From: Burkholderiales bacterium
GTDB lineage: Bacteria > Pseudomonadota > Gammaproteobacteria > Burkholderiales > JABEVD01
Length of the DNA: 64,000 nucleotides
Reading direction: 5' to 3'
Assembly (NCBI GenBank): GCA_019753155.1
Contig: JAIELG010000010.1
Location: 1 to 64,000 of the forward strand
Shown here: in pieces, positions 34,055-44,951 of the stretch
Numbering within the stretch: position 1 is the first letter of the stretch
Layout of the letters: each line of letters opens with the position of its first letter
Made by a program: the position numbers and the translations under genes
Notes under the pieces: generated by a model
Databases searched by the model: none
What the model was told of the DNA's origin: nothing
Seen by the model: only the letters and a program-made list of their open reading frames with translations

Positions 34055-36220
34055 TCAGTATCTGTAGCCCACCTGAGCGCCGATTGTCCGCCCCGACGCA
34101 TAGTAGGCAAGATAACCCAGTCCCGGGGGATCGAAGATCGTTTTTGCATAGGTTTTGTCCGCAAGATTCTTTACGAAGAAAGAGCCATACAGTCCCGATT
34201 TTCCGTAAGGCTTGTACGATAACAATACGTTCCAGAGGGACAGGGCGTCTCCGCTGGCATAGTCATCCCTGAAGGGGGTGTAATATACTTTCGACCGGTA
34301 GTATCCTTCGCCGCGTAGCGTGAACGAACCGTGCTCCAGCGGCCACGTGTATTGGGTTGCCAAATTGAGCGTCGTGTCGGGCGCGCGCGACAATGGGTTT
34401 CCCCCGAAATTTTGCGCTCCAAGCGTCGGGTAGCGGGGATCGATGGAGACGAAGTTCGTAAACCGGGCTTCGAGGAATTGCAGTCCGCCCGACAATTCGA
34501 GTCTGGAAGTCGGGTTCGCAACGAAGCTTGCCTCCATCCCTTTGCTGACGGCCTGGGCTGCATTCTGGATCGCCAAGGCGAACACGCCTGCATTGTTTTG
34601 CAAAATGGAGAGCTGCATATCGTTGTATCGCGTATAAAAGGCGGCCAGATTCAGTTGCAGGCTGTCGTCGAACAGTTTCGACTTGAGTCCGACCTCGTAG
34701 TTGATCGCCGTCTCCGGAGCGAAGGCCGGCTGGATCGAAATGGTGTTGTAGCCGCCGCTCTTGAAGCCCTTGGTTGCCGAAGCATAAAACATGTTGTTCC
34801 GGTCAGGCGAGTAATCGACCACGAACTTCGGGGTTACCGATGACCAGGTTTTCTTGTCGGTCTTGCTCCCGGTGAGCATGCCGTTGGCATAGGTCAGGTC
34901 TTTTTCCAGATTTTTTGTTTCCGTGCTGTAACGGGCTCCAACGGTCAGGCGCACACCGTTCGTCCACGAATAGGTGGCTTGCCCGCCCGCGCCTATCGAA
35001 TCGGTGGAAACGATTGCCACCGAGTTTTGCGTCAAGTTGAGCAGAGGCAGCGAAACGTTGTATTCCGGAGCATCGACCTTCTGATGGTTGTACGACAGCA
35101 GTCCCGTCCAGGCAAGGGGGGAATGGTCGCTCGAAACCAGCGTAAATTCCTGGGAGAAGAAATTCGTGATTTCACGTATTCCAGCGCCGGTCGTCTGGGA
35201 GCCCACTTTCATCAAGGGGATTTCCGTTCCGTCCAGATCGGCGCTCCCGTTGCGATCATCGGTTTTGTTGATGGCGGTGATCGATGTCAAGCGTTTCGAT
35301 TCCAAATCCCATTCGGTTTTGACATCGATACCGGATTGCGTGTGGCTCATGGCGCTTTGCTGGTTTTGCATGACTATCCGGGGATCGCTGATTGCCGTTG
35401 CGCCGAAATGGGTGAATAGCGGGTTCAATGCCGGATAAAGCGGTTTCATGATCGGATGGTCGTTGTCATGGTAGTAATGCGCATGGACCGTCACGCTGAG
35501 CATGTCATTGGGCAGAAATTCGAGCGTTCCGCGCAGCGCATTCACCTCGCTGCTGTTTCCCGTGACATTGAGCAGGATATTCCTGGTGTCTCCATCGTTC
35601 TGGTTATGGAGAAATGACAGACGCCCGATGGTCGAGCCATAGGAAAGGGGACCGCTGACAGTGCCGCGGACCATTTTTTGATTGTGGCTGCCGCCCTGAA
35701 CGTCGAATTGCCCTGATTGTTCCCAGGTAGGCGCCCTGGATATGATGTTGATCGCGCCTCCCGTGGCGTTCCTGCCGTACAGAACGCCTTGCGGGCCTTT
35801 CAGAATTTCGACGCGATCCACATCGACGAATTGCATCGCAGTGCCGGAGGCGCGGCTCTGATAGACCCCGTCCATATAAACCGGAACCGCGTCTTCCAGG
35901 CCCGGACCGACAATGTCGGTACCGATGCCCCGTATGAATATCTGGGTTTGTCCGGGGGCGGCCTTTGTGATGGACAGTCCCGGGACCGATTGCTGCAACT
36001 CCGCGACGGATTCCAGCCTTGATTTCTCGATATCCGCGGCAGTAAGCGCCGTGACGGAAACCGGGACATTCTGCAGAAACTGAGAGCGCCTTTCCGCGGT
36101 AATCACGATTTCTGCCGTGGCTGGCGTGTAAATGATGTCATCGCTCGCCGACGCTGCAAATGTCCAGGGACTGGCCCCGAATACAGCGTAAGCGACGATT
36201 GAGCCGAAACTTTTTTTCAT
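34055..36220 (-). CDS. TonB-dependent outer-membrane receptor
   Basis: The 721-residue protein has a signal peptide (cleavage near ASASDD, about 26), a TonB-box-like EIVITAERR (about 37-45), a plug domain (NVPVSVTALTAADIEKSR through VEILKGPQGVLYGRNATGGAIN) and a beta-barrel ending in GAQVGYRY, with the expected terminal aromatic. The LYGRNATGGAIN stretch is typical of receptors annotated for siderophores or other organic ligands; the ligand cannot be told from sequence. A ribosome-binding AGGGGAA precedes ATG. It begins 110 bases after the end of the secretion operon on the same strand, so it may be read through from it or have its own promoter. Confidence 0.88.
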   Translation of the reverse strand: MKKSFGSIVAYAVFGASPWTFAASASDDIIYTPATAEIVITAERRSQFLQNVPVSVTALTAADIEKSRLESVAELQQSVPGLSITKAAPGQTQIFIRGIGTDIVGPGLEDAVPVYMDGVYQSRASGTAMQFVDVDRVEILKGPQGVLYGRNATGGAINIISRAPTWEQSGQFDVQGGSHNQKMVRGTVSGPLSYGSTIGRLSFLHNQNDGDTRNILLNVTGNSSEVNALRGTLEFLPNDMLSVTVHAHYYHDNDHPIMKPLYPALNPLFTHFGATAISDPRIVMQNQQSAMSHTQSGIDVKTEWDLESKRLTSITAINKTDDRNGSADLDGTEIPLMKVGSQTTGAGIREITNFFSQEFTLVSSDHSPLAWTGLLSYNHQKVDAPEYNVSLPLLNLTQNSVAIVSTDSIGAGGQATYSWTNGVRLTVGARYSTETKNLEKDLTYANGMLTGSKTDKKTWSSVTPKFVVDYSPDRNNMFYASATKGFKSGGYNTISIQPAFAPETAINYEVGLKSKLFDDSLQLNLAAFYTRYNDMQLSILQNNAGVFALAIQNAAQAVSKGMEASFVANPTSRLELSGGLQFLEARFTNFVSIDPRYPTLGAQNFGGNPLSRAPDTTLNLATQYTWPLEHGSFTLRGEGYYRSKVYYTPFRDDYASGDALSLWNVLLSYKPYGKSGLYGSFFVKNLADKTYAKTIFDPPGLGYLAYYASGRTIGAQVGYRY

Positions 36221-36330: not shown

Positions 36331-37518
36331 CTATATCAGGTATGGGAAGGTCACGCCGAACGTGGCCGATTGCGCGATGCCGGCAAGGCCAAAGCTCAGC
36401 GTCGGCTCCATGCTCCACTCCCTGGTCAGCGTGTAGTGAAATCCCATGTTCAGGCGGAAAGACTCCGCCGCCGGCAGCGTCGCTTTCGAATAGGCGGTGC
36501 GGCCCTGGAAATCTCCGGAGAGGGAAAAATTGGCGGCGAACGCATCATTCAGGACGATGCCGTAACCAAGGGAAGCGCTGATGCGATCGCGGGCGGTCAG
36601 GTGCATGAGATCGTTCTCGTCCCCGACAAATGAGCGCCAGTAGAGCAGGGAGGCCGACATCACCGTGGGATCGATGCTTTTTGCAAACGTCATGCCGGCC
36701 CCCAGGGAACGTGTTTGATTCGCCGCAGTAGGCGCGTTAAAGCGGATATCGAGTATCCCGCCGGGAATGAGCTGTCCTTCGTTCCAGATTTGTTTTCTCA
36801 TGCCGAACGAGAGCATGGTCTGATCGTAGGTACTCGCGCCGATGGATTGATCGAGCACCAGTGTGTCCATGTTCTCATGCAGGCGTGTCATGCCGAACGA
36901 GAATTCGCTGTCGCCACTGCCGCCGCGGCGCAGGATGAACCCGGCCGTGGTGTTCCGGTATCGTTCGCTTGCAAGCGTCAACAGGTTCGGCGTCGCCATT
37001 GCGAGCACCTGCCGATCGAACCGCTCGAAGGAAAGCGTAGGTTCCAGCAGCCACTGGCCGGGTTTGAGCAGCAGCTTGGTATCGCGCATGGCGATATCCT
37101 GCGGCTTCGCGGCATCATCGGGTTTGGGGCCCAGTTGCCTGACAGGTTGTGTTGCCGGCGTGCCTGAAGGCGGCGAAACCTCCCCGGCATCGACCCGTGC
37201 TGCCGGCGGGCTTGACGGCGGCATGGCGCGGCCATGCGCGACCGGTGCCGCGTTCGAGGATGACATGCATGCGCCTGCATTGTCGCCGCCGAGCCAGCAC
37301 AGAATCGCCTGGCGCGAAAACCGCCAGCTTCCGCCCACATTCCGGCCAGGCAGATCTTTCCTGCGTGCCAGCGAGGCGACGGCGCCAGTTGGAAGGCGCA
37401 GCAATGCCGCAGCTTCCGGCAAGGTTAGCACTTCGCGCTGCGCTTCCGGTGCGGCGGCATGACCGGTTGCGGCAAGGGCCAGCCCCAGAACAACCGCCAC
37501 AGCAAGGCGCGGCATCAA
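36331..37518 (-). CDS. Exported protein fusing an excisionase-type HTH to an outer-membrane barrel
   Basis: The 395 residues start with a clear Sec signal (VAVVLGLALAATGHAAA, cut near 22). Residues 28-76 match the excisionase/MerR-like HTH_17 pattern very closely (LTLPEAAALLRLPTGAV, RKDLPGRNVGGSWRFSRQA), then a Pro/Ala-rich linker (about 85-140) and about 250 residues of alternating polar and hydrophobic strands that look like an outer-membrane barrel. A DNA-binding fold outside the cytoplasm is odd; it may have been recruited as a peptide- or glycan-binding module. It overlaps the C39 gene by 4 bases and ends the operon. Function unknown; a channel or exporter for the operon's product is one guess. 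Confidence 0.7.
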   Translation of the reverse strand: MMPRLAVAVVLGLALAATGHAAAPEAQREVLTLPEAAALLRLPTGAVASLARRKDLPGRNVGGSWRFSRQAILCWLGGDNAGACMSSSNAAPVAHGRAMPPSSPPAARVDAGEVSPPSGTPATQPVRQLGPKPDDAAKPQDIAMRDTKLLLKPGQWLLEPTLSFERFDRQVLAMATPNLLTLASERYRNTTAGFILRRGGSGDSEFSFGMTRLHENMDTLVLDQSIGASTYDQTMLSFGMRKQIWNEGQLIPGGILDIRFNAPTAANQTRSLGAGMTFAKSIDPTVMSASLLYWRSFVGDENDLMHLTARDRISASLGYGIVLNDAFAANFSLSGDFQGRTAYSKATLPAAESFRLNMGFHYTLTREWSMEPTLSFGLAGIAQSATFGVTFPYLI

Positions 37519-38201
37519 CGCACTGCTCCCGGGTAGGCCGTGCCGATGTTCATCAGCATGCGTGCTTCGAGTTTCTCGGGCGCCTCGAAATCGGCCCCGG
37601 GCAGAGCGCGCCAGTCCAGATCGATCCTGCCGTCGGCACGTTCGACCACGAAGATGATGCCCTGCTTTTTCTTGCCGAGCCAGTATTCGCGGAACCTTTC
37701 GAGCGGCATGCGCATGTTGCCCTGAGTAGGGTCGCTCAGAAACGCGCGATCGCCGCGAATGCCGCGCAGCACCGAAAAGTGCGGCTCGTCGCGTATGTTC
37801 AGAAAGACAATGACGGCGCGGTCGATTTTCGGCAATTGATCGATCCCAAGGCGGTATCCGGCTGCGCGATGGCCGCGCTGCTGCGCCACCCTTTTGAGGT
37901 CGAGGAGCGACAAACCAGTTTTCTCGCGGTCGACCATATCGCCTTCGGCGAGCAGGCCGAGCGTCTGACGGATGATCTCGTCCTCGGTGACCGGGTCTGC
38001 GAGTTGTTCGGTCAGGAGCGTCGCCAGCGAGGCGGCGCCGCAGGAATAATCGTGCCGCTGGCGAACGACATGGCGTTCACTCATTTCCTTGAGGGAAGCG
38101 ACATGCAGCACTATGCCCATTCCGCTGCCCATGGAGATGTCAGCCGCCCTTGCGGAAGTCAACAAAACCGACAGGGCGGCGCAGGCGACGCGGCCTCTCA
38201 T
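37515..38201 (-). CDS. Exported C39-family cysteine peptidase
   Basis: This 228-residue protein has a Sec signal (about 1-20) and a C39 peptidase core: oxyanion Gln48 and nucleophile Cys54 in RQRHDYSCGAASLATLL, His141 in EPHFSVLRG, and Asp157 in SDPTQG. C39 enzymes normally form the N-terminal domain of bacteriocin ABC exporters and cut leader peptides at double-Gly sites. Here there is no transporter part and the enzyme would act in the periplasm, as with FapD of the Fap amyloid system. The likely substrate is the small secreted peptide at the head of the operon, or TpsA. Four-base overlaps link it to both neighbours. Confidence 0.85.
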   Translation of the reverse strand: MRGRVACAALSVLLTSARAADISMGSGMGIVLHVASLKEMSERHVVRQRHDYSCGAASLATLLTEQLADPVTEDEIIRQTLGLLAEGDMVDREKTGLSLLDLKRVAQQRGHRAAGYRLGIDQLPKIDRAVIVFLNIRDEPHFSVLRGIRGDRAFLSDPTQGNMRMPLERFREYWLGKKKQGIIFVVERADGRIDLDWRALPGADFEAPEKLEARMLMNIGTAYPGAVR

Positions 38202-40678
38202 CGCCGTGTCTCTTGCTTCCAGATTTCGGGATGAACGGGCAAGCGTCCGCTTATAATGAAACTGCTCGACCCTTCGGTATTTTTTGCGGCGCAGACTGAA
38301 TTGAGCAGCATGCCGCTGTCCTCGAAGGATTCCCGCAATAACGCCAGACCCTGGCCGACATCGGTGTTGGGCGCGGCGATGTTGATGTTGCCGTTGATTC
38401 CAAGTCGGGACGAGGCTTGAACAAGACTTAGCGGATCGGTGATGAAATTGCCGGCGACGACCAGGATGTTGCCGCCGTTGCCGCCGAAGGCGTTGGCGGC
38501 GATGTTGCCATTCTTGAGCACGACAAAGAGGGGGTCGATCGAGATGTTGCCGCCGTTGCCGTTGCCGCGTTTCACCGAGGTGGCGATGCGGCTGTCCTGA
38601 ACGAACAGCAGGTTGCGGGCATTGGTCACGATGTTGCCGCCGTCGCTCGTCAATGCCTCGGTAGTGATCGAGGCGTTGTCGCTCAAACGGATGGAGTTGC
38701 CGGCATCGATTTTTATCTGCCCGGTGTTGCCGCTGCCGACGCTGCCGGCGGCGATCGAGCCCCCGTGCGCCATCAGGAGATCGCCCGTTGAAATTGCAAT
38801 ATCTCCGCCTTTTCCTGCGCTGTAAGCGCGCGCTTCGACCATGCCGCTATTGGTAAGATTCAGGCTGCCGGCGTCGATCTGGATATTGCCGCCTGCTCCG
38901 GCGCCGAAAGTGCTGGAAAGGAAGCCCGACAACTCGCCCGAGACGGCAATGCTGCCTGCGTGTACGCTGAGCAGTCCGCCGTTTCCGCTGCCGCGCAGGT
39001 TTGCGTTGTTACGGTCTCCGCTGCCCGAGCCGATGGTTGCGCGATTGTTGCGGTCGATGCCGATAAGCTTGATGGAATCGGCAGATAGATGAATATTGCC
39101 GGCATTGCCGTTGCCGAAGGTTGCAGCCTGGATTGATCCTCCCGCCGACATGGCAAGGTTTCCTGTATGCAGCCATATGTCCCCGCCGGCGCCGCTGCCC
39201 ATCGTTCTGGCATCCAGGCCGGATAGCCCGCCAAATGGATCAATGCCGCCGATGCTGACCGAGCCGGAGGCATTGACATGCAATGTTCCACCCGCGCTGC
39301 CTCCAGCGGTTGCGGCGGAAATGTGACCGCCATCCCGAAGCATCAGGTCGCCCACATTGACAGTGATCGTTCCGCTGCTGCCGTTGCTTTTCGTATAGGA
39401 GTTGCCGATATTGACCACGGCGCCGCCGGCGACTTCGAGTTTGGGCGCCGTAAGCGTGATGCTGCCCGTCTGCCCGGCGCTGGTTTTGTCGGACTGGGCT
39501 GAAATGGATGTCAGGGCGTTGGCGCTTTTATAGCCGGACAACCGGATCGAATTGCCTGCCTCGATGCCGATATTCCCGCCTTGCCCGGCGCTGCCGAAGT
39601 TGTTGGCATGAATCTGTGCGCCGCTATCGAGCCTGACGGTTGCTGCCTTGACCAGAATATTGCTGCCCAGGCTGGCCTTGTTGCCGTTGTACACATTGTC
39701 GGCCGTGACTGCCGCGCCATTGCTTGCGTACAAGTCGTTCCTTGCATTGATGTCGACGCTGCCCCCATTGCCGAATAAATAGGTGTCCGCGCTGACAACG
39801 GCATTTGCGAGGCTCAGGTTTTCGCCCCTGATGACGATCTGTCCGCCGGGACCGAAGCTGGAATAGTTGGAGGCATCGAGATTGCTGAGAGATGCGATCG
39901 GCCTGCCGCGGCCGTCGTAAATGACATGTTTCTGGACGGCGGAAGAAACAGAGAGGCTGATGCTGCCGAGCCTGGCGAAACCGTCGAGCTTCGTCCAGGC
40001 GCCGGAACTGTCCTGGCTCACGGTGCCGGGAGAACCTGCGCTGTCTATCTGGATTTTGCCGCCCGGGGCGTAAATGAAGCTGTCTGCGAGCGTGATGTTG
40101 CCGCCAACCAGGGCAATGCCCTTGCCTTTCCCTACGGCGAGATAGCTGCCGTTGAGATTGATCCCCGCAGGAGCCGCGGAGAGAAACCCGAAAGCGCTCG
40201 GCGCATCGGCGGTCAATATCGTATCGGCGCCGGGATTGGCGGGAAAATTCCCGCTTGCGCCCAGTTTGAGCACATCGGCAGTGCTTGCATGAAAAGATCC
40301 GGTCAGGTCAAGCGCGGCATTGGGGCCGAAGGCGATTCCCGCGGGATTGAGCAGATAGAGATTGGCGCCCGCGATGCTCGATCCGAGCCGCCCATCGATC
40401 CAGGATGAGGCGCCGCCGGTCACGCGCGCGATGATGTTGGCAATGTTGCCCGGCCCCGCAAAAATCGCCGATTCACCGGTATTCACCGAGAAACTGGCGA
40501 AGCTGTGAAAGAGGTTGCCACCGACCTGCCGACCGTAACTGGCGGGAATGGTAAATTTACCCGATAGGGTCGTGCCTGCCGCGACCGCCCCCACCGTGCC
40601 GTCGAAGGTCGCGGCTGCTTGCGCCGTGACCGCGCAGGCAAGCGCCATGACGCCGATGAATCCTGGGCATGCTTTCAT
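38198..40678 (-). CDS. TpsA-type exoprotein with filamentous haemagglutinin secretion domain
   Basis: The 826-residue protein has a signal peptide (about 1-22) and an N-terminal TPS domain (about 24-270) with LYLLNPAGIAFGPNA (107-121), a variant of the NPNGI motif that guides TpsA proteins to their TpsB partner. The rest is Gly/Ala/Asn-rich repeats (such as GNIHLSADSIKL and GGNIQIDAGSLNL), which should fold as a right-handed beta-helix. The C-terminus (GSSSFIISGRLPVHPEIW) resembles a tail common in cyanobacterial and proteobacterial TPS proteins found with CHAT and DUF928 genes. It would be secreted by the TpsB encoded three genes upstream. No toxin domain is visible, so adhesion or surface structure is more likely than contact killing. 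Confidence 0.9.
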   Translation of the reverse strand: MKACPGFIGVMALACAVTAQAAATFDGTVGAVAAGTTLSGKFTIPASYGRQVGGNLFHSFASFSVNTGESAIFAGPGNIANIIARVTGGASSWIDGRLGSSIAGANLYLLNPAGIAFGPNAALDLTGSFHASTADVLKLGASGNFPANPGADTILTADAPSAFGFLSAAPAGINLNGSYLAVGKGKGIALVGGNITLADSFIYAPGGKIQIDSAGSPGTVSQDSSGAWTKLDGFARLGSISLSVSSAVQKHVIYDGRGRPIASLSNLDASNYSSFGPGGQIVIRGENLSLANAVVSADTYLFGNGGSVDINARNDLYASNGAAVTADNVYNGNKASLGSNILVKAATVRLDSGAQIHANNFGSAGQGGNIGIEAGNSIRLSGYKSANALTSISAQSDKTSAGQTGSITLTAPKLEVAGGAVVNIGNSYTKSNGSSGTITVNVGDLMLRDGGHISAATAGGSAGGTLHVNASGSVSIGGIDPFGGLSGLDARTMGSGAGGDIWLHTGNLAMSAGGSIQAATFGNGNAGNIHLSADSIKLIGIDRNNRATIGSGSGDRNNANLRGSGNGGLLSVHAGSIAVSGELSGFLSSTFGAGAGGNIQIDAGSLNLTNSGMVEARAYSAGKGGDIAISTGDLLMAHGGSIAAGSVGSGNTGQIKIDAGNSIRLSDNASITTEALTSDGGNIVTNARNLLFVQDSRIATSVKRGNGNGGNISIDPLFVVLKNGNIAANAFGGNGGNILVVAGNFITDPLSLVQASSRLGINGNINIAAPNTDVGQGLALLRESFEDSGMLLNSVCAAKNTEGSSSFIISGRLPVHPEIWKQETRR

Positions 40679-41370
40679 TTCGGGGTTTCCCCATGTTCGG
40701 ATGTTGCGGCCGCAAGCCCGGCCTGACTCAGCAGGTTGGCGAGTTGACGCCGCGCCTCCGGAGAGGCGTCATTTTTCGCGGCAATGCTCTCTTCGGCCTC
40801 GATTGCGTCGTACCAATAGCCCTGTTCGGCGTAAAACTGCGCCTGCCCCGCCGGGTCGAGAGCCGCAAGCCGTTTTTTCAGTTCATCGCCTGCAGCGACA
40901 TGGCGGATGGCTCCGGTGGAGACGATGTCCAGGGAGCGGTTATTGGGATCGAACACCAGGGCGAGATTCCACAGGTAGTCGGTGTCGGGTTTGAGCCGCA
41001 CGCCTTCCGAGGCGAGGGAAACCGTGATCAGCCTGCCGTTTGCCGCAATCCGGCGTTCGATAAGCGGCGCGACGGCATGTTCTTCGATCAGCGAGAATTC
41101 GATGTAGCCTTTGTCAGGCGGCGCAGACAGGAAACCGTAGAGCGTCGGCTGATCGCGGATGGTCAACCCTGTGTGGTCAGGCGCCAGCACGACCAGGGTC
41201 GGAATGTCAGCGATGGCTCCGCCGCGGGCTCCGCCGCTGATGCGGTTTGTCGGCGCCCCGCGCATGGGCGGCTTGTAAACGATGCTCGCTCCGTGGGGCA
41301 GAGTTTTTTCTGCGCCGGCCGTACCCATCATGGCGAGCAACGTCAGTGCAGTCACTATCTCGATTCGCAT
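40675..41370 (-). CDS. Exported DUF928-family protein
   Basis: The 231 residues start at ATG 41370 behind GGGAGAAC, with a signal peptide (MRIEIVTALTLLAMMGTAGA). The body has the DUF928 pattern: APTNRISGGARGG near the start, then LVVLAPDHTGLTIRDQPTLYGF, YLWNLALVFDPNNRS, and a helical tail. The family is uncharacterised but is often encoded beside CHAT proteins and TPS systems in cyanobacteria and proteobacteria. Its stop overlaps the TpsA start by 4 bases. A periplasmic or surface role in TPS biogenesis is inferred from context only. Confidence 0.82.
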   Translation of the reverse strand: MRIEIVTALTLLAMMGTAGAEKTLPHGASIVYKPPMRGAPTNRISGGARGGAIADIPTLVVLAPDHTGLTIRDQPTLYGFLSAPPDKGYIEFSLIEEHAVAPLIERRIAANGRLITVSLASEGVRLKPDTDYLWNLALVFDPNNRSLDIVSTGAIRHVAAGDELKKRLAALDPAGQAQFYAEQGYWYDAIEAEESIAAKNDASPEARRQLANLLSQAGLAAATSEHGETPK

Positions 41371-41381
41371 GTTGTTCTCCC

Positions 41382-42953
41382 TTACATCCAGTTGCCGATA
41401 ACAAGAAATGGCCCCCAATAGCCGGGGTGGCGAAAACGCCGGTCGGCCAGCAGCTTGAGCTGCGCTTCGCGCAGGGCAAGGGCTTTCGACAGGCCGCCGC
41501 GCATGCTGCGATAGAATTCCTCCACTATTTCAGAGGCTGCGCTATCATTGATGTACCAGAGCGAAGCGAGCGCGCTTTGCGCGCCGGACTTGACGGCAAC
41601 TCCGGCCAGGCCCAGCGCCGCCTTGTCGTTTCCCGCCGCTGTCTGGCAGGCGCTCAGCGTGACGAGCCTCACCGGCTGGCTGCTGTAACGTCGGCTGCCT
41701 ATGAGCTGCTGAAGATCGTCCAGGCTCACCTTGTCCGAATAGGAGAGCAGGAAAGTATCGTTCGGATTCTCCCGAAACTGGGCATGCGTGGCGATATGTA
41801 CGATCCCGTAATTGCCGGCCTTCATTTCGCTGGACAGACTTTGACGGTCGAAGGCTTCGTCGACCAGCGCAGTGCCGTGATATAGGTTTTCCACCTCGCG
41901 CACTTCTTCCGCGACGCTTGGCAGGCCGGGGAAATGCTGCACCGGTTTGGAAACGGCGCCGATCAGCATGTTGTCTTGCTGCCGTTTCACAATGCGCACA
42001 TCGGTCAGGCGCAGCCCCGGAACCACCGCCACTGCCCATTTGGAAATCAGGAAATCCTTGCCGTCGTGCAGCGTCGCCATCGGAATCATCCGCAAAGGCC
42101 CGTCCGGGACGAACACCAGTGTCTCGATTTTGGCTGCTTCGAGCATGGGGGCGATCGGGCGGATCATCCAGTCGTAGAACAGCCATGACGAAGTCATGAA
42201 CTCCTGAGTCGTGCGCTTGCCGAGCTTGTTGACGAAAATGGCGGTTTCCTGCCGGAGTCTTTCGGCGCCCACGGGGACGGTGATCTGGTGGAGGGTGCCA
42301 TGGATATCGACGAGAATTTCCATGCGTTCCGGAAAAATGATCGGATAAATAATGGCGGCATGGCTGTCGAGATTGGTCGCATCGGGCATCGAATCGGACG
42401 AGGCCAGGCAATCGTTGCGGAAATAGTTGCGCAGCTCGGCTTCCCGGTAACGTTCGATCGTCTGTTGAGCCTCGCGCCGCAGCGCCTGGACTTCGGCCCC
42501 GTCATTGAGTGCCTGCGCCCGGCGCAGCAACAGGTCGGCGAGACGGGAATAGACCTGTCCTTCGGTTTCGCGGAACATGTCCGCGCTGCCCCGCAGCGAT
42601 TGCAGGTGAAAGGCCGCTTCGCGCAGCGGCGCGATTGCCTGTTCGCTGCGTCCCATGCGGTCGAGGATCAGCCCGGCCTGCCATTGCGAACTGAACATCA
42701 GATAAGGGTCTCTGGCCTCCTGGCTTGCGAAAACTGCGCGGTCGATCAGCCCCAGGGCTTGAGGCAGGTTTCCCTCGGCTTCACGCTGGTGGGCTTGCGC
42801 AATGAGTTCAAATACATGCTTTGCCGCCAGCGCCAAGCCCTCTTTGCCGGGATCGGCAGTCTGGGCATGGGAAGCGCCTGCAAAAAGCAGCAGGAAACTG
42901 GCGCATATGGCGACCCGAACGCGCCGTGCCATGGTTGTCAGGGTGGCGTTCAT
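41382..42953 (-). CDS. Exported CHAT-domain (caspase-like) protease
   Basis: The 523-residue protein has a signal peptide (about 1-30), a helical, TPR-like segment (about 40-175) and a CHAT domain (about 240-523). The catalytic dyad is visible: His390 in IVHIATHAQF and Cys436 in VTLSACQTAAG; VFVPDGPLRMIPMATL and the C-terminal GYWGPFLVIG are also typical. CHAT proteases share the caspase/separase fold; the known bacterial cases are mostly cytoplasmic defence or cell-death enzymes, whereas this one should be periplasmic. It lies between TpsB and DUF928, overlapping tpsB by 4 bases, so processing of TpsA or another exported partner is plausible but unproven. Confidence 0.87.
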   Translation of the reverse strand: MNATLTTMARRVRVAICASFLLLFAGASHAQTADPGKEGLALAAKHVFELIAQAHQREAEGNLPQALGLIDRAVFASQEARDPYLMFSSQWQAGLILDRMGRSEQAIAPLREAAFHLQSLRGSADMFRETEGQVYSRLADLLLRRAQALNDGAEVQALRREAQQTIERYREAELRNYFRNDCLASSDSMPDATNLDSHAAIIYPIIFPERMEILVDIHGTLHQITVPVGAERLRQETAIFVNKLGKRTTQEFMTSSWLFYDWMIRPIAPMLEAAKIETLVFVPDGPLRMIPMATLHDGKDFLISKWAVAVVPGLRLTDVRIVKRQQDNMLIGAVSKPVQHFPGLPSVAEEVREVENLYHGTALVDEAFDRQSLSSEMKAGNYGIVHIATHAQFRENPNDTFLLSYSDKVSLDDLQQLIGSRRYSSQPVRLVTLSACQTAAGNDKAALGLAGVAVKSGAQSALASLWYINDSAASEIVEEFYRSMRGGLSKALALREAQLKLLADRRFRHPGYWGPFLVIGNWM

Positions 42954-44560
42954 TGTTTTTCCTCAAAAAAATCGGACGAAATGCGGAAATGGATGCCGCT
43001 GTCCTGAAGATTGCTTCCGGGGATGGGCGCTTTTTTCAGCGCGTAACCATAATAGATGCGCGCATGGGTATTTTTCCATGGCTGCCATTCGAGCCCTGCG
43101 CCCAGGCTCGCCAGCGTATTCGCCTGGGCTGGAGCATTTTTGTCCCAGGCTTTTCCGGTATCGAAAAAAGGCACGAGTTCGAGCGCATGGCTGCCGCCGG
43201 CGGCAAGACCGATATGCGCCTCGACCGTGGCTGACACGACATCGTCGCGGACAAGCAGGTTCTCGCGGTAGCCGCGCACGGTATCGAAGCCGCCGATGGA
43301 GGACTTTTCCAGCGCGAGCAGTGGACTGCTGCTGACCTGGAAATTGGCGCGCAGATGCACCGAATCGTCTGAGGCGTTGATTTTTTTCGCCCATTGGAAC
43401 TGTCCCGCCCAGTGGGAAAAACGGCCATCGGGTGAGGCCGAATTAATGGTGGCGCCGAGCGCGTTCAATCCGAAGCTGAAAGTCGAGCGCAGGGAGACGA
43501 TTCTCTGCGGCGAAACATCCAGCCATTCCTGCGCAAGCCGCAATGCGGTGACGCTGCCCTGCCCGCTCTGCTGACCCGCGCTGAATGAGAAGGGCATTCC
43601 GAGCATCGTGGTCTCACTCCACTTTCTCTCTATCTTGGCGAGGAGGGCGAATTCGCGCTCGGGGCCATACTCCCATGGCATGCGTAGCGAAACGGCGGTG
43701 CTGCTGGCCTTGCTCGTGATATTGAGCGCGCTGAAGGTGCTGTCGATGACGACAGCATCGTTCTTCCGATAATGAAGGCCGATGGTGGTGTCGCGGGACG
43801 TGACGGGCAGCCAGTAGTCGAGTTCTCCGTCGGCAAGGCCGCGGGTCTTTCCGACGAGAAGGCGCAAGGAATCGCCGTGCCCGGTAAGATTGCGATGTAC
43901 GCCTTCGAAAGCCAGATGCTCGGCGCCGACGGAGGGCGGATGGCTGTTATCCAGTGTCAGTCCCATCTGATAAGGTCGCGCCTCTGTCACATGCACGTCG
44001 AGTTCCGACTCGCCGGGGCGCATGCCAGGCTTGAGGTGGGCATTGACGTTCCCGATCAGCGGATTATGCTTGAGCTTCAACAGCGCATCCTGCAGCGTCC
44101 GGACATTGAGGGGTTCGTTTCCGGCCGCGGCGATGCGGGATGCGATATAGCTGGTTTTCAGGCGACCGTTGCCGTCGATCCTGATGTCCTTGAGGCGGCC
44201 TTCCTGGATCGAGATCGTTACGACGCCGTCCTCGATGCTCTGGTCTGGGATCGTGGCGCCCGAGTTGATGTAGCCGTGTTCGACGTAGTACAGGGTCAGC
44301 TTCTGCCGCAGTTCGTGCAATTCCTGTGCGGTTACGAGCTGCCCAAGATAAGGGCGGATGAGCGGTTGAAATTCATCCGTGGAAAAAACCGTGTTGCCGG
44401 AAAGTCGAACTTCCTTGAGAAAAAGCGCAGGGGTGGCCGAAAGCATGGCGCTGTCCGGCCGCGCAAATAAAACGGATGGCAGCAGCAGCGCTCCGGCAAG
44501 CAGCGCTCCTCGACAAAATCTTGGGATCATCCTGAAAGTCTCGCTTGGCAAATTAACCAT
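42950..44560 (-). CDS. TpsB outer-membrane transporter (ShlB/FhaC/HecB family)
   Basis: This 536-residue Omp85-family protein secretes TpsA proteins. After a signal region (about 12-34) come two POTRA domains (about 47-122 with LKEVRLSGNTVFS, and 125-195 with LKDIRIDGNGRL), then a 16-stranded barrel with the conserved loop-6 motif VRGY in GFDTVRGYRENL. A start at the internal ATG 44530 (MIPRFCRGALLAG) would give a more usual signal peptide; neither start has a strong ribosome-binding site. It begins 50 bases after the peptide gene and overlaps the CHAT gene by 4 bases. Confidence 0.92.
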   Translation of the reverse strand: MVNLPSETFRMIPRFCRGALLAGALLLPSVLFARPDSAMLSATPALFLKEVRLSGNTVFSTDEFQPLIRPYLGQLVTAQELHELRQKLTLYYVEHGYINSGATIPDQSIEDGVVTISIQEGRLKDIRIDGNGRLKTSYIASRIAAAGNEPLNVRTLQDALLKLKHNPLIGNVNAHLKPGMRPGESELDVHVTEARPYQMGLTLDNSHPPSVGAEHLAFEGVHRNLTGHGDSLRLLVGKTRGLADGELDYWLPVTSRDTTIGLHYRKNDAVVIDSTFSALNITSKASSTAVSLRMPWEYGPEREFALLAKIERKWSETTMLGMPFSFSAGQQSGQGSVTALRLAQEWLDVSPQRIVSLRSTFSFGLNALGATINSASPDGRFSHWAGQFQWAKKINASDDSVHLRANFQVSSSPLLALEKSSIGGFDTVRGYRENLLVRDDVVSATVEAHIGLAAGGSHALELVPFFDTGKAWDKNAPAQANTLASLGAGLEWQPWKNTHARIYYGYALKKAPIPGSNLQDSGIHFRISSDFFEEKQ

Positions 44561-44610
44561 CCAGAATGCCGCGAACGTTGCCGCTCGCGGCCGATGCTCA
44601 TGACGCGGTA

Positions 44611-44868
44611 TTACCTCCTGAAGCCGACTGCCAGCCCGGCGGCGGCGAAGCCTGTCCTGTTGTACGCGGTATGAATGCCGGTGTTGAAGGACATGTCGGC
44701 AAAGCAGCTTCCGTCGGCACAGAAGTCGAACGACTTGCCTTCAGTCTTCGCCAGATCTGCATTGCTCATCGCAGTGGCTTTGACGCCTTCCTGAAGTTCT
44801 ACCGATTGTGCAGCCATGGCGCTTGCCGAAACCAGGGACAAGGCCAAAACAAGGTAACGCAGTTTCAT
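44611..44868 (-). CDS. Small secreted peptide with leader-like motif, first gene of the TPS operon
   Basis: This 85-residue protein has a clean signal peptide (MKLRYLVLALSLVSASAMAA, 1-20), then MSNADLAKTEG (34-44), which resembles the LSxxELxxIxGG recognition motif of double-glycine leaders except that the second Gly is Lys. The remaining 41 residues carry two cysteines (Cys50, Cys55; CADGSC) and a Gly/Ala-rich end (FAAAGLAVGFRR). AAGGAG 7 bases before ATG gives a strong start. An exported C39 peptidase in the same operon could cut after Gly44, releasing a peptide with one possible disulfide. I do not recognise a named family; the processing model is inference. Confidence 0.7.
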   Translation of the reverse strand: MKLRYLVLALSLVSASAMAAQSVELQEGVKATAMSNADLAKTEGKSFDFCADGSCFADMSFNTGIHTAYNRTGFAAAGLAVGFRR

Positions 44869-44951
44869 AATAATCTCCTTAATGAATTAACAACGCAGGC
44901 GTGCCTGCCAATTGCCCCTAGGTTGGGACGTCTCAATGCTAATCGCTGCAA

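Follow-up and report, generated by a model that had tools for sequence, protein, structure and literature searches.

The locus examined here raises the question of how a small secreted peptide may be matured when a recognition site of the kind read by double-glycine (GG) C39 peptidases lies behind a Sec signal instead of at the N-terminus. The peptide, of 85 residues, is encoded on the minus strand at positions 44611–44868 of the 64-kb stretch of DNA that was analysed, hereafter the window. Translation of this open reading frame (ORF) gives MKLRYLVLALSLVSASAMA/AQSVELQEGVKATA-MSNADLAKTEGK-SFDFCADGSC..., where the slash marks the predicted signal peptidase site, and it bore out the preliminary description in the extent and length of the ORF, in the residue numbers 34–44 assigned to the leader-like motif and in the two cysteines, Cys50 and Cys55. 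The predicted layout comprises a Sec signal (residues 1–19 or 1–20, ending ASAMA/A; residues 1–20 correspond to positions 44809–44868, minus strand), a 25-residue spacer that ends in the GG-type leader motif MSNADLAKTEGK (residues 34–45; positions 44734–44769, minus strand) and a predicted mature tail of 40 residues containing both cysteines. The Sec signal was assigned from the sequence with a simple predictor, and signal peptides were called throughout with a simple home-made rule. A Shine-Dalgarno sequence, AAGGAG, is located 6 nt upstream of the ATG (positions 44875–44880, minus strand), and the GC content at the three codon positions (0.52/0.49/0.67) is coding-like. A promoter scan gave no match, and neither Pfam nor NCBIfam assigned a family to the peptide. 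Apart from weak matches, homologues of the whole peptide were found neither among 300 genomes of the same order nor among nine genomes of the same family, which leaves the mature part an orphan. One match in a genome of the same genus (G082) was rejected, being a short psiF-like ORF that lacks the motif.

How far the motif departs from chance was assessed with a strict pattern, [LMIV][STDN]..[EDQ][LMI]..[VIT].[GA][GAKQRSN], and with two scoring matrices. Among the six-frame ORFs of 30 or more residues, the strict pattern occurs once in the window, within the peptide and behind its Sec signal, as had been proposed. The first matrix was compiled from general knowledge and comprised about 20 classical GG leaders; here 1.05% of shuffled versions of the part of the peptide behind the signal equalled the score of the peptide. 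Taken alone, the motif is moderately above chance by this measure. A second matrix was built from 60 non-redundant 12-mers from substrates adjoining related C39 genes, the window being excluded; here 45 of 50,000 shuffles (0.09%) and one of 289 signal-peptide genes located far from a C39 gene equalled the score of the peptide. Since this second matrix was picked using the first, it overcounts genes near a C39; both the window and the genes far from a C39 are out-of-sample. A leader profile from which the window had been left out missed the peptide when run on the genome that encodes it, the profile being too insensitive for blind recovery. The stretch ESVAELQQSVPG in the TonB-dependent receptor encoded downstream was also considered as a leader and was rejected, because it sits in the plug domain and was judged to be a chance match.

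The 60 12-mers also bear on the end of the motif. Glycine is almost fixed at their position 11, G, A, R, K, E and Q all occur at position 12, and the residue that follows as number 13 is often aromatic. The window motif deviates in having Thr at residue 42, not Ile or Val, and Lys at position 12, not Gly, and both are found in relatives. The preliminary description had read the final Gly-Lys as a departure from Gly-Gly; it does read GK, but such an end is unremarkable given the variation at position 12. That description had also predicted a product of 41 residues. The prediction of a C39-type cut at the place marked by the motif stands, while the register of GG and GA leaders, which are cut behind the second residue, suggests that the peptide is probably cut after K45, to give 40 residues, rather than after G44.

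The candidate peptidase is encoded at the other end of the same gene cluster. Downstream of the peptide gene, and on the same (minus) strand, lie in order the genes for a TpsB/ShlB-type outer-membrane transporter with POTRA (42950–44560), a CHAT-domain protein with a signal peptide (41382–42953), a DUF928 protein (40675–41418), a TpsA exoprotein with a TPS/filamentous-haemagglutinin N-terminal domain (38198–40678), a periplasmic C39 peptidase of the FapD/NapP kind (37515–38201), a FapF-like outer-membrane barrel (36331–37518) and a TonB-dependent receptor (34055–36220), whose membership in the system is uncertain. Because most of these genes overlap or are separated by no more than tens of bases, co-transcription is likely. 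The gap that separates tpsB from the peptide gene holds a strong RNA hairpin of 10 bp (44568–44591, minus strand; z −3.3) that lacks a U-tract. It may set unequal expression, such hairpins being frequent in operons that overproduce their first gene.

As had been noted before, the C39 protein carries a signal peptide of its own. It matched Peptidase_C39 with 61.2 bits (Pfam gathering score 22), and its best curated matches were FapD (3.9e-31) and FilB (NF050078; 9e-22), both under the equivalog cut-offs. With 108 bits against a FapD cut-off of 330, it is homologous to FapD and not equivalent. The oxyanion Gln48 and the triad Cys54-His141-Asp157 were invariant in 30 C39 relatives. Both its sequence and its fold matched LahT, PCAT1 and ComA, and the solved structure nearest in fold to the predicted model (pLDDT 84) was that of the double-glycine protease LahT in complex with a leader (target TM 0.79). 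In this genome, which is rated 99.7% complete, the sole other C39 match is an HlyB-like exporter domain lacking the catalytic Cys. The gene at 37515–38201 is therefore the one C39 of the active type seen in the genome, and the HlyB-like domain was rejected as a processor of the peptide. The latter domain belongs to a type I secretion operon on another contig (L158, 4165–13935), where we also observed, adjoining it, sulfotransferase-like genes and a repetitive protein rich in Gly and Asn, one stretch of which (TQVLIHEIGHALG) is a metalloprotease-like HExxH.

The C39 gene is separated from the peptide gene by 6.4 kb, and between them lies what is by its TpsA with a TPS domain and its TpsB with POTRA/ShlB a two-partner secretion (TPS) operon. 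Conceivably, the peptide could be an accessory of this TPS operon, encoded by the first gene of a tpsB-CHAT-DUF928-tpsA unit, in which case the motif would be a chance match and the target of the C39 would lie elsewhere. Its gene is indeed located directly upstream of tpsB on the same strand, and the shuffles that score equally against classical leaders, at about 1%, would leave room for coincidence. Yet TpsA/TpsB/CHAT/DUF928 clusters elsewhere lack the peptide: six other TPS loci, one of them in the genome of the window, were without C39, barrel and motif peptide, two of the six (L177 and L181) being partial. The paralogous cluster in the genome of the window (L176) combines TpsA, TpsB, CHAT and DUF928 genes on another contig.

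Conversely, similar peptides are present where the TPS operon is absent. The closest relatives of the window C39, with 44–49% identity, belong to three loci (L076, L078 and L079), each of which forms a cassette of a peptide with Sec signal and leader (LSVEEMEAISGE, LSVEEMQSISGQ and LSAAEMQSISGE), a C39 and a barrel with a helix-turn-helix (HTH) domain, and no TPS genes. The C39-barrel pair is also present in L077, where a MSATEMEDVEGQ peptide is encoded on the opposite strand, and in L081, where no peptide was recognised. The resemblance extends upstream of the motif, where the nine residues LQEGVKATA of the window peptide align with ALEGVDAQA and AIEGINAQA of the cassettes with a score of 44, compared with a maximum of 31 for 81 other substrates (shuffle p 0.006); this similarity does not depend on the motif. 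The cassette substrates terminate in CxxC in two cases and in another in CxxxxC, the arrangement of the window peptide. Since the cassettes share the peptide and the other TPS loci do not, we place it with the C39-barrel pair, the TPS operon being nested between them. Together with the absence of the strict motif from every other ORF in the window, this makes an accessory of the TPS operon with a fortuitous motif an improbable explanation.

If the C39 peptidase reads a leader behind a Sec signal, such leaders should be common beside related peptidases. FapD-like C39 loci were collected from the 300 genomes of the order and from 80 named loci of many phyla, and signal-peptide genes were counted as near when no more than 3 kb from the C39 gene and on its strand, and as far when more than 6 kb away. 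The classical-leader score was reached by 85 of 380 near genes, whereas only 6 of 291 far genes reached it. After dereplication of the C39s at 60% identity and removal of barrel genes, the counts were 31 of 162 near and 2 of 135 far, an approximately tenfold difference (Fisher 2e-7), and 25 of the 54 dereplicated loci had at least one leader gene. When the leader profile built without the window was run on the same 300 genomes, it gave eight full-motif matches, one of which (G142) had been in its training set, and all eight lay no farther than about 4.2 kb from a FapD-like C39. Furthermore, the leader types track the C39 clades: xxEMKxTEGA is found with Nap-like, LxDxELxxLRG[RK] with Fap and LSxxEMxxISG[EQ] with the nearest relatives of the window C39, the place of which in the tree is weakly supported. 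No Pfam or NCBIfam family covers most of the substrates of these relatives. Nor is the leader limited to small peptides, because near the C39 of a Persephonella locus (L132, 626–3733) a secreted protein of 1035 residues carries LSEEELGDVSAQ directly after its signal.

The two-step maturation put forward in the preliminary description, by signal peptidase and then by periplasmic C39 cleavage, is thus supported by the abundance of leaders beside FapD-like C39s, the agreement of leader types with the C39 tree, the similar cassette peptides and the absence of the peptide from TPS clusters without C39. With good confidence, we consider the peptide to be a substrate of the periplasmic C39 of its operon. 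It would first be exported by Sec and cleaved by signal peptidase after residue 19 or 20. In the periplasm, the C39 would then bind the amphipathic leader, approximately residues 25–45, reading M34, L39 and, in third place, T42, the positions read by classical C39s, together with the conserved G44. Judging from how consistently such leaders accompany such peptidases across the family, cleavage after K45 would free the 40-residue product SFDFCADGSCF...GFRR, probably with a Cys50-Cys55 disulfide. The search for paralogues of the motif elsewhere in the genome, which had been suggested as a check, found no further substrates.

The barrel encoded next to the C39 gene is, by analogy with the FapF and NapF precedents, likely to be the exit channel of the mature peptide. 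Its model has 12 strands and FapF as top fold match, and it scored 24.7 bits against NF058560, for which the cut-off is 700. A winged helix (HTH_17) is inserted between signal and barrel in the window and in L076, L077, L078, L079 and L081. This excisionase-type domain (window 36331–37518, minus strand; L076, 7222–8292; L077, 4353–5564) has a DNA-binding fold, is predicted to be periplasmic and is conserved adjoining C39 genes. Another observation concerns the NapF/FapF-like barrels of L066, L102, L106, L108 and L130, of which the mature N-terminus, LTVEDLITDKGK, is also leader-like by score; it is possibly a second FapD/NapP site, or else a feature of COG4313. This leader-like start of Nap-type barrels would fit a different role for the C39, namely that it is a leader-binding chaperone or cuts the periplasmic part of the barrel and not the peptide, and cleavage of FapF by FapD was indeed discussed by Rouse et al. 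2017 (PMC5557850). However, the window's own barrel lacks the strict motif, the catalytic residues of the C39 are intact and leader motifs are far commoner in small neighbouring proteins, and we regard this alternative as highly improbable. Cleavage of the peptide by the C39 remains our preferred reading.

The Sec-then-C39 logic very likely also explains the pairing of FapD with FapE in the Fap amyloid system of Pseudomonas. The activity of FapD is essential to amyloid secretion in Pseudomonas (PMC5557850, PMC6173800, PMC12822426). Rouse et al. 2017 judged the Fap proteins to be without a canonical C39 site and left the target of FapD open; in the same study, FapE was the sole Fap protein for which no N-terminal peptides were detected (PMC5557850). 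The substrate was still undetermined in 2018 (PMC6173800) and was 'thought' to be FapE/FapF in 2025 (PMC12822426). A bona fide FapE adjoining FapD in Pseudomonas marincola (317 bits, cut-off 250) reads NPFVPVE-LSDQELSQLRGR-YVLPG behind its signal. Among 40 FapE-like genes beside these C39s, approximately 39 encode, a short distance behind the signal, [LV]xDxxLxxxRG[RK] or a sequence much like it; the start of the fortieth, in L138, was unreadable. Examples adjoining FapD are found in L110 (10662–11402) and L125 (10576–11370), besides about 37 more. Judged by this conservation, [LV]xDxxLxxxRG[RK] is the probable FapD cleavage site in FapE. Among the open-access journal articles searched, none was found to describe this leader.

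The closest known systems are the Fap system and the Nap island of Neisseria. With Fap (FapA-F; PMC5557850, PMC6173800) the window shares a FapD-like periplasmic C39 and a FapF-like barrel with 12 predicted strands; moreover, the protein suspected to be the FapD target, FapE, bears a leader behind its Sec signal of the same kind as the window peptide. It differs in that C39 and barrel score far under the FapD and FapF equivalog cut-offs, and FapA, FapB, FapC and FapE, of which FapB and FapC are the amyloid repeat proteins, had no match among the operon proteins of the window. Like the Nap island (napABC, NapP C39, NapF; PLoS Biol 2025, PMC11798529), the window holds within one locus a small GG-motif peptide, a FapD-like C39 and a FapF-like channel. 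NapP was proposed to cut the Nap peptides in the periplasm; no Sec signal was named, and NapH was suggested for inner-membrane transport (PMC11798529). In two Nap-type loci of other species (L106 and L061), which stand in here for the gonococcal Naps, the leaders LSAQEMKETEGA and LSKQEMKETEGA are preceded by a Sec-like signal, and their final TEGA resembles the TEGK of the window. Unlike the Nap island, the window has a single peptide, a channel with a winged-HTH front domain, and peptide and C39-barrel genes that flank a TPS operon.

Outside the cell, the mature peptide would most likely act as an accessory of surface or matrix assembly. This last step is a guess, tentatively preferred to a toxin because the peptide gene is co-directional with that of the TpsA exoprotein. 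The layout shared with the Nap island (PMC11798529) and the small size of the peptide would suit a toxin of the class II microcin or bacteriocin-like Nap type, antibacterial or autolytic, which would be exported, cut and released in the same manner and differ in its action. Such a role seems unlikely: the predicted mature peptide is nearly neutral (pI 6.5–8.1, charge −0.5 to +0.8), unlike the cationic alpha-helical Naps, it is single and lies within a TPS operon, and no immunity-like gene was recognised. We therefore retain the accessory role as the working assumption.

The comparison also covered two further systems. PCAT1, LahT and ComA share the leader pattern LSxx[ED][LM]xx[IV]xGx and the C39 fold with Gln-Cys-His-Asp. 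In PCAT systems, however, the leader is at the very N-terminus, without Sec signal, and is cut on the cytoplasmic side of a C39-ABC exporter, whereas the window has its leader behind a Sec signal and a free periplasmic C39. The putative pilus system Fil (FilA, FilB) includes in FilB a C39 relative, and in L099 the gene for a FilA-like protein with ISEKDLQEVTAQ after its Sec signal adjoins that of a C39; Fil differs from the window in its substrates.

It is probable that the free periplasmic C39s, namely FapD, NapP, FilB and that of the window, all read GG-type leaders located behind Sec signals and so constitute one widespread route, in which FapD would cut its substrate FapE directly behind LxxxRG[R/K] and the window peptide would be a further, new substrate, linked to a TPS operon. 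From this follows a rule for finding substrates: a Sec signal, then LSxxELxxIxGx within about 10–60 residues, adjoining a periplasmic C39. Applied to FapE and to dozens of small secreted proteins that are as yet uncharacterised, the rule predicts a specific cut site, and it suggests that Nap-type peptides cross the inner membrane via Sec. A different class of C39 was observed in L048 (297–953), L053, which is from the genus of the window, and L062, beside tandem Sec proteins of 95–147 residues with LSxAQMDxVTAG leaders and Ala/Thr-rich bodies.
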